Assembly: GCA_946886245.1 (NCBI GenBank)
Contig: CAMPIF010000136.1
Coordinates: 1-9,358, forward strand
Length of the DNA: 9,358 bases
From: Ectopseudomonas composti
GTDB taxonomy: Bacteria > Pseudomonadota > Gammaproteobacteria > Pseudomonadales > Pseudomonadaceae
Reading direction: 5' to 3'
The position numbers and the translations under genes are program-made. Shown here piece after piece: positions 1,972 through 4,937 of the stretch; position 1 is the first letter of the stretch; every line of letters starts with the position of its first letter. Below the pieces are notes generated by a model that saw nothing but the letters and a program-made list of their open reading frames with translations, was not told where the DNA came from and did not search any database.

Positions 1972-2832
1972 TCAACGACTGACTACTGACTCGCCTCCCT
2001 GGCACTGTTGCGCAGCCAGGTCGGCATGCAGGCTTTTCAGGCGCGTATCGGCTCGCTCCATCTGTTTTGAGTCGGCTTGGGCGACCAGGTCCACGATCAT
2101 CTCGGCCATGGCCTGACGGGTCTTATCAAAACTGGCCTGGTAGGCCTCTGTGTAGAAGCGCTCGCGCTGTTGCAGCAGGGCGGTCATGCGCGCAGCGAAA
2201 TCGTCGCCACGGCGTACTTCCAATGCCTCACGCAGAGCCTGTTGCCAGGCCATGCGGTTTTCCAGCCAGATCTTGTTCTGTTCGCCCAGGCCCTGTGCCC
2301 AGCTCTGCACCCGCTCGCGCTGCCCGGCGTTCAGCGTGCCGAACCAGGGCTGCAGGCGCTCTTCCATACGCTCGGCGCGCCGACTGACCTGTTCCTGCAC
2401 GGGCGGCTCGAGAAACTCTTCACGCAGCTTGGCGTTCTGCTCGTCCATTGCCGCCAATAGCTGATCGACCTGACGCGGGCTGAGGCCGCGCAGCAGTTCG
2501 ATGGCGCTGGGTGTGATCTCCACGGCGATGCGCTGCATGGCTTGCTCGAAGTCGGCCAACTGGCTGGCCATCAGCTCGCTGTCACGGCTGCTCAGCGCCT
2601 GCTGACTGCGTTGCAGCCAGTCGAGATAGCGCGGCAGCTCGACGCTGCAGTGCCAGGCCAGGTGCTCCTGCAGTTGGGGTTTGAGCCAGGCGCTCTGTTC
2701 GCTGGTCAGCGCCACGTAGTCGCCCAGCTTCCAGGGGATCAGCCAGTCGAGGTTGCGATAGGCCAGGCCGACACGGCTGCAGGCGCTCAGCAGCAGGGTG
2801 ATGGCCAGTAGCAGGAGCAGAGGCTTGCGCAT
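1972..2832 (-). CDS. DUF6279-type lipoprotein
   Basis: This is a predicted outer-membrane-directed lipoprotein of unknown function. From the ATG at 2832 it has 286 residues. The signal peptide MRKPLLLLLAITLLLSAC carries a clear lipobox (LLSAC) with Cys18. Ser at +2 and no Asp argue for sorting to the outer membrane. After it, YRNLDWLIPWKLGDYVAL followed by a long, mostly helical region rich in Gln, Arg and Glu matches what I recall of the DUF6279 family common in Pseudomonas. Repeated motifs such as LREEFLEPPVQEQ and WFGTLNAGQRERVQSWAQG suggest a helical bundle. An in-frame TTG at 2889 would add 19 residues before the signal peptide and is rejected. No strong Shine-Dalgarno is visible. It is convergent with ung and divergent from the DUF599 gene. 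The lipoprotein call is firm; the family name is from memory. Confidence 0.88.
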   Translation of the reverse strand: MRKPLLLLLAITLLLSACSRVGLAYRNLDWLIPWKLGDYVALTSEQSAWLKPQLQEHLAWHCSVELPRYLDWLQRSQQALSSRDSELMASQLADFEQAMQRIAVEITPSAIELLRGLSPRQVDQLLAAMDEQNAKLREEFLEPPVQEQVSRRAERMEERLQPWFGTLNAGQRERVQSWAQGLGEQNKIWLENRMAWQQALREALEVRRGDDFAARMTALLQQRERFYTEAYQASFDKTRQAMAEMIVDLVAQADSKQMERADTRLKSLHADLAAQQCQGGESVVSR

Positions 2833-3268
2833 GAGCGGGACTCGCGAGAGTAGAGCTGTTGAGACTAATACTCGTCGAGGCTGACGCAAGAGGGCGGAAA
2901 TATTCGCTTAAGAGTTCGGTGATGTGAGGTTTGGATCGCGCTTAAAAGAGGAGGTTCTTTGCATGGTGTGGGAAAGTGCAGATTGATACCGAACTGGCAA
3001 GTTTGTGTTCGTATCGCTTACTGGCTTAGCACTATCCATTACCGCGTCTGCTGAACGTTTGGGTTGCGCCCCTTACGGGCGCCACACCTTGATTCGCTGC
3101 GCTCACCCTTCGGGCCAGCCTGCGGCTGTTACTCCGCTTCGCTGCGTTTCCTCGCTCCGGCGCCGCTGCGGGGGCAGGCTTACATGGGCCATCCTTGGCC
3201 CATTAAGCGGGGCCGCCATCGGTATTTCGCCGCATCCATGCGGCTCATCCCCCTACGCAACACCTCCG

Positions 3269-3398
3269 CTCGGCCTCCTGAAGGGGACCGGTTCGCGAGC
3301 TTGCAAAATCTTCGGAAGATCAAAGTCGGTAGCGTTTGGTTTTTGCTCTTGAAACGCGATCTCACAGACGACGCCCAAGTCCCCTTCAGGAGGCCGAG
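3269..3398. repeat. Perfect 20-bp inverted repeat at the heart of the large palindrome
   Basis: The arms at 3269-3288 (CTCGGCCTCCTG then AAGGGGAC) and 3379-3398 are exact reverse complements and enclose a 90-bp unpaired core (3289-3378). The core shows no repeat or convincing gene. It is the only pair in the large palindrome without a single mismatch. Confidence 0.85.
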
Positions 3399-3546
3399 TG
3401 GAATCACCGCGTAAGGGGTTGAGCGACATGGATGTCGCGAGAGCTGCGATGGGCCAGGGATGGCCCTTCGCAGCGTGCCCCTGGAGTGGTGATGGAACGA
3501 GGGAACCCCGGCGCAGCCGGGGCCGTATGTAGGGGTGTGTTTCTTT

Positions 3547-3595
3547 GCTTACTTTCTTTGCACAAGCAAAGAAAGTGAGTCGCCCGTAAGGGGCG
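3547..3595. repeat. Two adjacent short hairpins within the right arm
   Basis: ACTTTCTTTGC (3551-3561), loop ACAA, and GCAAAGAAAGT (3566-3576) form a perfect 11-bp stem. With G-U pairs it extends to about 15 bp (3547-3580). Immediately after, CGCCC (3581-3585) and GGGCG (3591-3595) form a second small stem. The first hairpin has no counterpart in the left arm, so it looks like a separate module inserted in or retained by one arm. I recall this TTTCTTTGC-type hairpin as a frequent Pseudomonas intergenic motif. Confidence 0.7.
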
Positions 3596-3740
3596 AAACC
3601 CATCAAGCCAGGCGGCGTGCTAATGGAGAGTGCCAGGTCATCGACAGCTAACACGTAATTGCCAGTCCGGTGTCAAGCGTATCCGCCCCACGAAAATGCG
3701 AAGAACCTTTTTTGTCGAACAAGGAAAGAGGCAGCCTGGC

Positions 3741-3746: not shown

Positions 3747-3772
3747 CCGCAGCAGTCTTGCAAGGAGTTGGC

Positions 3773-4507
3773 ATGCTCAACAGCTATCCGTATCTGCCTC
3801 ATTTTCTGGCCGCTCTGTGGTTCGTTCTGTGCTGGGGCGGCTACACCCGCTATGCCTCCTTGAAGGCGCGAACCACGCCCTGTCTGGCCAGCGTCCTGCA
3901 CCTGTACCGTGAAGACTGGATGCGCCGCATGCTGCTGCGTGACAATCGCATTGCCGATGCCAACGTGATCGGCAACCTCGAGCGCAACGCCTCGTTCTTT
4001 GCCTCCAGCACGCTGATTATCCTGGCCGGTATCCTCACCGTGCTGGGCGCTTCCGACCGCGCCCTGTCGCTGCTGGCCGACATTCCTTTCGTGCAGCAGG
4101 CCAGTCGTGGTTTATCCGAGATCAAGCTGCTGTGCCTGGGCATCATCTTCGTCTATGCCTTCTTCACCTTCAGCTGGTGTATGCGCCAGTACAACTTCGC
4201 AGCGGTGCTGGTGGGCTCGGCGCCAATGGTGGGTGAGCGGCATGTCACCGAGCAGGAGCGCAAGGCTTTCGCAGAGCGCACAGCGCGGGTGATCTCGATG
4301 GCCGCCAACCAGTTCAACTTCGGTTTGCGCGCCTACTATTTTGGTATGGCAACCCTGGCCTGGTTCATCAACCCCTGGTTCTTCATGCTGGTGACTGCTG
4401 GCGTGGTCGTGGTGCTGTATCGCCGCGAGTTCCACTCGGATGTGCTGGAAGTGATGGTGTATACCCCAACGCCGGCCGCCGAGGTGGCCAAGGAGAAGAG
4501 TGAATGA
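3773..4507 (+). CDS. DUF599 family integral membrane protein
   Basis: This inner-membrane protein of unknown function has 244 residues. The ATG at 3773 is preceded by AAGGAG (3762-3767). A TTG at 3758 overlaps the region before that site and is rejected. Hydrophobic segments lie at about residues 9-24 (FLAALWFVLCWGGY), 74-93 (FFASSTLIILAGILTVLGAS), 119-135 (LLCLGIIFVYAFFTFSW) and 188-216 (two helices split by INP at 199-201), giving four or five passes. Between the first two lies the family-typical stretch LLRDNRIADANVIGNLERN (54-72). Together with ASSTLIILAGILTVLGA it is what I recognise as DUF599. The C-terminus is short and charged. The stop overlaps the next start by 4 nt (ATGA, 4504-4507), indicating translational coupling with the MAPEG gene. 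Confidence 0.9.
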   Translation: MLNSYPYLPHFLAALWFVLCWGGYTRYASLKARTTPCLASVLHLYREDWMRRMLLRDNRIADANVIGNLERNASFFASSTLIILAGILTVLGASDRALSLLADIPFVQQASRGLSEIKLLCLGIIFVYAFFTFSWCMRQYNFAAVLVGSAPMVGERHVTEQERKAFAERTARVISMAANQFNFGLRAYYFGMATLAWFINPWFFMLVTAGVVVVLYRREFHSDVLEVMVYTPTPAAEVAKEKSE

Positions 4508-4899
4508 GCCTGCCGTTCTGGTGCGTCTTTATCAGCGCCTTGTTGATCTTCATCGCCAAGGCCCCGGTGGCCAAGGCCATGGCCAAGGAGGGCGGTGGTC
4601 GTTACGACAACCATCACCCACGCGCCCAGCAGGCGCGTCTGACGGGTTTCGGCGCGCGTGCCCTGGCAGCGCATCTGAACAGCATCGAGGCTTTCCCACT
4701 GTTCGCGGCAGGTGTGCTGATGGCGCACACCACGCAGACTTACGGCTTTCTGGTCGACATTCTGGCCGTCACCTTCGTCGTCAGCCGCGTGCTGTACCTG
4801 CTGTTCTACTGGTGGGATCTGCACTGGCAGCGCAGCCTGGTCTGGGTGGTGGGCCTGGCCTGTAGCCTGCTGCTGATGATCAGCCCGGCGCTGAAATGA
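4504..4899 (+). CDS. MAPEG family membrane protein
   Basis: This small 131-residue inner-membrane protein is of the MAPEG type (membrane-associated proteins in eicosanoid and glutathione metabolism). Bacterial members are mostly uncharacterised. Helices lie at about residues 4-19, 52-76, 80-103 and 110-128. The conserved segment YDNHHPRAQQARLTG followed by GARALAAHLNSIEAFPLFA (about 34-68) is characteristic, including the AHxNxxEAxPLF pattern thought to face the glutathione site in family members. The start overlaps the DUF599 stop by 4 nt, so the pair is co-translated. The last codons and the stop lie inside the stem of the terminator hairpin (4889-4937). Glutathione transferase activity is possible but not shown by sequence. 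Confidence 0.92.
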   Translation: MSLPFWCVFISALLIFIAKAPVAKAMAKEGGGRYDNHHPRAQQARLTGFGARALAAHLNSIEAFPLFAAGVLMAHTTQTYGFLVDILAVTFVVSRVLYLLFYWWDLHWQRSLVWVVGLACSLLLMISPALK

Positions 4900-4937
4900 A
4901 AGAAGGCCCGCAATGCGGGCCTTCTTTCATTTCAGCG
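4889..4937. terminator. Bidirectional intrinsic terminator, 23-bp perfect stem
   Basis: The arms at 4889-4911 and 4915-4937 are exact reverse complements with a 3-nt loop (AAT). The GC-rich top (GGCCCGC/GCGGGCC) is followed on either strand by TTCTTTCATTT, which supplies a U-rich tail in both directions. It lies between the convergent MAPEG and acidic lipoprotein genes and overlaps the MAPEG stop codon. The minus-strand gene stops 5 nt beyond the stem. Confidence 0.92.

Follow-up and report, generated by a model that had tools for sequence, protein, structure and literature searches.

The TwoAYGGAY motif was described by Weinberg et al. (2010, PMC2864571) from the human gut, gamma-Proteobacteria and Clostridiales, and is presented there as probably an RNA and not cis-regulatory. 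A 2014 study of RNA motifs (PMC4333381) proposed that this RNA binds CsrA. In publications screened mostly at the level of titles and abstracts, we found no link between TwoAYGGAY and mobile DNA. Mobile repeats are known in Pseudomonas: the R0, R2 and R6 repeats (Silby et al. 2009, PMC2718517) are MITE-like, intergenic and non-autonomous, some with inverted-repeat ends, and the excerpts consulted have them moved, it is thought, by insertion sequence (IS) transposases in trans.

We describe here a 755-bp palindromic element that shares these traits with R0, R2 and R6. The latter differ in being 50-352 bp long and, in a comparison made by description only, no RNA family is named for them in the excerpts consulted. 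Nor does the element belong by size to the REP/REPIN class, which, as summarized in the sources at hand, consists of palindromes of 20-40 bp, single or paired, whereas ours has 755 bp, ISL3-type ends and 8-bp duplications. With ISL3 insertion sequences and their MITEs it has in common terminal repeats starting with GG, an 8-bp target duplication and the nature of a small derivative devoid of a transposase gene; however, its 755 bp consist of predicted folded RNA units, not of a shortened transposase gene, and it shows a preference for the T-tracts of terminators. At a probability of roughly 0.75, we interpret it as a transposable element that is non-autonomous, carries ends of the ISL3 type and has for its body two divergent copies of one structured RNA unit related to TwoAYGGAY.

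The element lies in a 9,358-nucleotide stretch from Ectopseudomonas composti, the whole of which is referred to as the window. The initial annotation had noticed a large imperfect palindrome, at 2952..3708, between two divergent genes. This palindrome is real: its arms align locally with a score of 213, against a mean of 38.4 (standard deviation 6.3, maximum 67) for 100 dinucleotide shuffles, a clear anti-diagonal runs across it, and three long arm pairs stand out (3022-3090/3572-3640 at 72%, 3146-3203/3449-3506 at 76% and 3227-3288/3379-3440 at 79%). Its true ends are one base further in on each side, at 2953 and 3707, the limits common to copies at unrelated sites. The outermost pair, as had been supposed, forms terminal inverted repeats, GGTTCTTTGCAT (2953..2964, plus strand, where the likeness to ISL3 ends spans about 37 nt) and ATGCGAAGAACC (3696..3707, minus strand). 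A central spacer (3289..3378) separates two divergent units; no sigma-70-like promoter was found in it, and a simple promoter and terminator scan yielded neither signal. Four ORFs of at least 60 amino acids lie wholly inside the element, none with a Pfam match, in agreement with the transposase-free body proposed earlier. The flanking genes encode a DUF6279 protein (1972..2832, minus strand, start codon chosen within ORF 1972-2889), on the side of what we call site A, and a DUF599 protein (3773..4507, plus strand, start codon chosen within ORF 3758-4507), on the side of site B; they are divergent in the window but are not neighbours in relatives. Elsewhere in the window, a long perfect inverted repeat, GAAATGAAAGAAGGCCCGC-AAT-GCGGGCCTTCTTTCATTTC, was seen by eye at the end of a 131-aa ORF (4893-4933); it is terminator-like and has no element inserted in it.

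The window belongs to a Pseudomonas chromosome. The nearest compared genome, G001, shares 60% of its sampled 31-letter words, and the element's DNA gives 27 matches in it, some of which are one place read on both strands. Of 95 relatives sampled, 47 have matches with E-values up to 0.001, some of which cover nothing but short inner stretches, and aligned copies at unrelated sites end at identical points. A 28-letter core pattern retrieved 110 loci, all titled Pseudomonas, mostly from the mendocina/oleovorans/alcaliphila/chengduensis/composti group with some from argentinensis, straminea and punonensis; since the pattern was taken from the mendocina-type group, this is no measure of breadth. 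The 127 loci searched hold 133 copy regions, 112 of them clear of locus edges and 61 with both ends (at most three mismatches), and many copies are decayed, mosaic or truncated. Among plasmids, the search returned only two records, both from Caballeronia, in which the matches span 41-48 bp; phages and viral contigs searched with the element gave no match. No convincing ISL3-type end pair was found at 27 loci with older relatives (L030-L056); single ends are recognisable by eye in G009 (L321) and, less alike, in G029 (L327). Dispersed copies with terminal inverted repeats and no transposase support the suggestion of a MITE-like non-autonomous element, as opposed to a single-copy sequence encoding a conserved protein. 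Within the left arm of the window copy, the module at 3090-3156 is unlike most of the 12 other aligned copies. Two loci, L068 and L069, carry both left-arm modules in tandem, so modules have been exchanged.

Copies with both ends allowed us to analyse insertion sites. Fifty-five of them differ in their flanks, corresponding to 33 sites when flank-sharing copies are joined. An exact 8-bp target duplication is present in 14 of the 55 copies, and 22 are within one mismatch, compared with 1.5% and 6.3%, respectively, in a control that pairs the left and right sides of different copies and thus corrects for the T-richness of flanks. Sizes of 5, 6, 7, 9, 10 and 11 gave 6, 5, 5, 0, 0 and 0 exact duplications; counted by site, 13 of 33 have at least one copy with an exact 8-bp duplication. 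The multiple copies and target duplication envisaged for a mobile element are therefore both seen in the family. A T-rich flank reads towards the element in 49 of 55 copies, and a hairpin of -8 kcal/mol or lower followed by a T-tract adjoins it in 48 (27 of 33 sites), although this cut is loose and is passed by 77% of shuffled flanks. For the 49 T-rich flanks the mean hairpin energy is -19.5, versus -10.6 when the hairpin part is shuffled and -10.3 at 336 other T-tracts, taken from the loci of the copies themselves; an energy of -12 is reached in 45 of these 49 flanks, against 30% of shuffled flanks and 33% of the other T-tracts. Since the hairpins go beyond both controls, the family, as read from the flanking sequences, inserts mostly in the T-tracts of intrinsic terminators. 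One copy, L070, was a candidate recombinant for want of a duplication and was dropped: the sequence on its right is a repeat present in several copies, and another insertion explains the missing duplication. The stretch of about 999 bp adjoining the right end of this copy (G013:C1:4163.3-4164.3 kb) is found again, identical, in two other places and, in part, in one more.

Which enzyme moves the element? The sequence of its ends, GGTTCTTCGCAT, is similar to that of the termini of insertion sequences of the ISL3 family. In Pseudomonas, a group of ISL3 elements with a 436-aa product (PF01610) has ends GGCTCTTCGCAT and 8-bp duplications (two loci, by eye); a mostly 406-aa group has ends GGTTCTTCACGG, and 18 of its 22 copies keep an exact 8-bp duplication; and a 400-aa group has ends GGTTCTTCGC and an exact duplication in 4 of 7 copies, with one more matching at 7 of 8 positions, bearing in mind that ISL3 end pairs were picked partly by their duplication. 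Copies of the 406-aa and 400-aa groups lie, in an uncontrolled reading, mostly in T- or A-tracts, often near a hairpin. The left end of the 400-aa group aligns with the first 37 or so letters of both arms with a median score of 22 (shuffles: mean 12.6, maximum 24 of 1000), that is, the similarity is short; the right end (score 15) and the interior of this group have no standout likeness to the element. Genome G001 contains six ISL3-type matches, and the two stretches viewed hold only a broken relative with GGTTCTTCGC-type ends. The family thus has the attributes of an ISL3-driven MITE, namely GGTTCTTCGC-like terminal repeats, an 8-bp duplication (seen in the family, the window copy being without one) and no transposase gene, and an ISL3 transposase supplied in trans is, to judge from these ends, its most likely driver. 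Weak PF01610 matches of roughly 40 bits, which almost all of the Pseudomonas genomes searched contain once, were not counted as transposases; that of G013 (L090) is a 450-aa ORF that reads by eye as a membrane desaturase. In the literature, titles and abstracts reported no terminator preference for ISL3, and the accessible text of PMC4133298 makes no mention of one; PMC11702846 describes, for Enterococcus, an 8-bp duplication that is linked to ISL3 and lies at the terminator of an rRNA. Two copies of a 1308-bp ISL3 element in G274 (L291 and L292, at 3.03 and 2.53 Mb) have unlike 8-bp flanks, an A-tract facing a T-tract across the element, which is what the two products of an inversion, about 0.5 Mb apart, would look like.

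The copy in the window has no target duplication: its left flank, AAAGAGGA (2945..2952, plus strand), differs from its right flank, TTTTTTGT (3708..3715, plus strand), the T-tract that follows the brnQ terminator hairpin in relatives. When the window flanks were joined and used as a query, the two matched separate contigs of G001 and of G009, while in G013 a distance of 0.66 Mb lies between them. In four relatives (P. chengduensis 402, ZH-FAD, P. alcaliphila and P. indoloxydans), site A consists of DUF6279, the element and livF, the last with a terminator; P. composti LY1 has the same DUF6279 side, the opposite side lying beyond the stretch seen. Site B consists of brnQ, a terminator hairpin, TTTTTTGT and DUF599 (the names livF and brnQ are our own reading of the ORFs). 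Both sites also occur without the element: site B is empty in G001, in G013 and, in a diverged form, in G009, and site A is without element in G013. At this last locus (L249), a REP-pair-like intergenic inverted repeat between DUF6279 and livF was seen by eye in place of the element. The window joins the DUF6279 side of site A to the DUF599 side of site B. Because its flanks are separate loci in relatives and the duplication is missing, the window copy marks, on the evidence of these comparisons, the junction of a chromosome rearrangement. It would be a recombinant, in which the left part of site A (DUF6279, element, livF) was joined to the right part of site B (brnQ terminator, DUF599), either by exchange between copies or by a transposition event linking the two sites. 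Copy exchange and aberrant transposition may both give such a junction, and we do not rank them.

Other copies may have had a similar history. Among 57 copies compared for flank sharing, 37 pairs have both flanks in common and 15 pairs one flank; one-flank pairs involving L126, L164, L197 and L207, where one flank is shorter than 300 bases, were set aside. L111 (P818) has the left flank of L162 and the right flank of L125 and L179, copies whose own octamers differ at 1 of 8 positions; those of L111 differ at 6 of 8. The two flanks of L111 are separated by about 173 kb in G013, by 305 kb in G028 and by 125 kb in G009. In L128 (PA27), one flank is also that of L172 and the other also that of L165, the octamers of L128 differ at 5 of 8, and its flanks are on different contigs of G002. 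The duplication of L165 is exact, and that of L172 differs at 4 of 8, so L172 is no clean parent of L128. By their flanks, L111 and L128 appear to behave like the window copy. This recalls the Galileo-type elements of Drosophila, copies of which generate inversions by ectopic recombination; host and sequence are unrelated, and arms made of RNA units are a feature of the present element.

Each arm carries a copy of one predicted structured RNA unit. A covariance model recovers the right unit at 3379..3529 (plus strand; core, R1 182.3 bits, E = 5.9e-45), with an arm module extending to 3600, and a divergent left unit at 3127..3288 (minus strand; R1 104.4 bits, E = 1.7e-25), aligned with an 18-nt insertion by the first hairpin and with a module extending to 3062; besides these two strong units, the window gives one chance-level match and nothing else. 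The right unit is one of the 49 in the model, the left is outside them. In the right unit, the hairpins GCGACATGGATGTCGC (3423..3438, plus strand, helix 5) and GGGCCAGGGATGGCCC (3451..3466, plus strand, helix 7) present ATGGA and AGGGA loops. The initial proposal that both arms stem from one unit placed head to head is supported by a unit on each arm and by the existence of solo units, and the palindrome is symmetrical because two copies of this unit stand head to head. The inner arms, rightly noted as the best preserved, owe this to CCCCTTCAGGAGGCCGAG, a nearly invariant part of the unit that sits there.

Sixty-two units were found, of which 12 of odd length were kept out of alignment A1 and a spurious one (L114:440-584) was dropped before alignment A2, leaving 49 that comprise right arms, left arms, solo units and older copies. 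The alignment has 36 pairs, 26 of them with compensatory change, and 97.9% of cells pair, against 84.9% of shuffled cells. Double-changed cells number 247, compared with 55.4 +/- 9.9 in shuffles and 6-37 when the sides are slid by one to three columns, and none of 500 shuffles reaches any of five covariation measures; as the units are related and the structure derives from their own alignment, these controls flatter the covariation somewhat, and the counts are not independent events.

At 3416..3480 (plus strand), the right unit has a match to the Rfam model of TwoAYGGAY (RF01731) of 39.1 bits (E = 1.5e-4), below the cut-off of 43; on the left arm the model's one match, to a single hairpin, does not exceed chance (18.5 bits, E = 7), and no Rfam family matches the window at curated cut-offs. 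The cut-off is passed by 2 of 7 loci, L057 (44.6 bits) and the solo unit L364 (43.1 bits), and by 4 of 18 loci of another set. As in TwoAYGGAY, two neighbouring stem-loops with GGA in their loops lie inside an outer stem, but neither window arm has two AYGGAY terminal loops: the second loop of the right arm is AGGGAU after AUGGAU, and the left arm has AUGGAU and AAGGAU. The units described here further differ from TwoAYGGAY in being mobile, high-copy and head-to-head, with extra 3' hairpins. ANGGA occurs in loop 1 of all 49 units and in loop 2 of 48, the remaining one being without the middle base, and several stem pairs change in step while these loops stay. On the outward strand, GGA is found 7.9 times per right unit (n = 44), 9.4 times per left unit (n = 39) and 9.1 times per solo unit (n = 18), while the other strand (TCC) has 0.02, 0.31 and 0.61, respectively; flanking DNA has 2.5 GGA and 2.6 TCC per 215 nt. 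The window arms have 7 and 8 GGA. Several GGA with ANGGA in hairpin loops are a trait of CsrA/RsmA-binding small RNAs, so the pattern is as expected of a CsrA/RsmA decoy, keeping in mind that it is shared by descent among related units. CsrB, RsmX, RsmY and RsmZ display the same repeated GGA and ANGGA loops; unlike these decoys, our units are dispersed, mobile and multi-copy, and their expression and binding are predicted. From these likenesses we infer that the unit is related to the TwoAYGGAY RNA and binds CsrA/RsmA.

Units were detected in at least 50 of 59 genomes of the genus, with up to 52 of the best candidates scored in each, and in at least 19 of 299 genomes and 9 of 153 genera of a phylum-wide sample, with the best 10 scored in each. 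Two of the latter genera are further members of the family, another belongs to the order (up to 94 bits), and remoter ones reach 29-51 bits. Head-to-head pairs, counted by eye, account for 18 of 30 units in G009, 8 of 8 in G621, 4 of 6 in G191 and 2 of 10 in G393; there is none among the ten best units of G150, G205 and G389, where partners may score lower. The back-to-back layout thus recurs, alongside solo units. In G002, a second, non-palindromic repeat (L360-L371) carries one RNA unit with the same series of hairpins, several copies lying between inverted ends AGAACCTGTTCACGATCTTT and AAAGATCGTGAACAGGTTCT, and the unit is accordingly present in two or more kinds of repeat. When the surroundings of 30 RNA matches were searched generically for terminal repeats, no clear common end emerged.

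Is RNA structure what has been preserved in this palindrome? Its position between divergent genes in the window had suggested that it forms a cruciform, or buffers supercoiling, between their divergent promoters, a role the comparison of copies does not uphold. In 37 copies, arm-to-arm pairing gives 86 double-changed cells, no excess over shuffles (mean 77, maximum 100 of 200), whereas local hairpins give 62 (mean 18.7, maximum 26); the large cruciform is therefore not the conserved feature. Most copies, besides, stand at terminators, and the divergent setting results from the rearrangement; we find the buffer explanation scarcely credible. The local hairpins themselves might act as DNA, single-stranded or as small cruciforms, in transposition, replication or protein binding, with covariation produced by template switching, which is known in palindromes. 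Short hairpins do covary within copies, as this would predict, and G-U compared with A-C does not single out a strand when only pairs common to both are counted: this test, telling at first, was withdrawn after a reverse-strand control, since the G-U excess appears in structures predicted on either strand and the 23 shared pairs give 7 versus 9. However, the outer stem (helices 1-4), with sides up to 112 columns apart, covaries too, a result not easily accounted for by template switching within hairpins. In the folding of both strands, a check proposed initially, the outward strand is more stable than its reverse (-70.8 versus -46.3), and GGA is strand-specific. A purely DNA role therefore seems unlikely to us.

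The element may also be a passive fossil, a MITE with functionless cargo kept by transposition alone, and the many decayed, mosaic or truncated copies would fit. Compensatory changes and conserved loops in units of two or more kinds of repeat make this a poor account, and we give it very little credit. Of the roles first put forward, that of an RNA is favoured by covariation, although no transcript was seen.

Our preferred reading, a transposable element built of two RNA units, would work as follows. An ISL3 transposase in trans probably moves the element into the T-tract of a terminator, which is duplicated upon insertion, leaving the terminator on the hairpin side whole; with its T-tract duplicated, the terminator would stay usable and the insertion harmless. 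Each arm would be read outward from the centre, so that read-through from either side carries one sense unit, and this unit may bind or titrate CsrA/RsmA. That the element is a mobile CsrA/RsmA-decoy RNA, a pair of divergent sponges offering a sense copy in either orientation to read-through transcription at terminator T-tracts, is a tentative extension that we hold possible but doubtful.

A large palindrome that looked like a fossil would thus have a reason, two RNA units back to back, and TwoAYGGAY, an RNA family of unknown function, would be tied to mobile DNA in Pseudomonas, which makes its predicted link to CsrA directly testable. Our results also point to a preference of ISL3-type elements for terminator T-tracts, and suggest that, for copies at rearrangement junctions, a lost target duplication marks the event. 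If the decoy hypothesis is true, the tens of units in a genome could determine how much of a global regulator is free.
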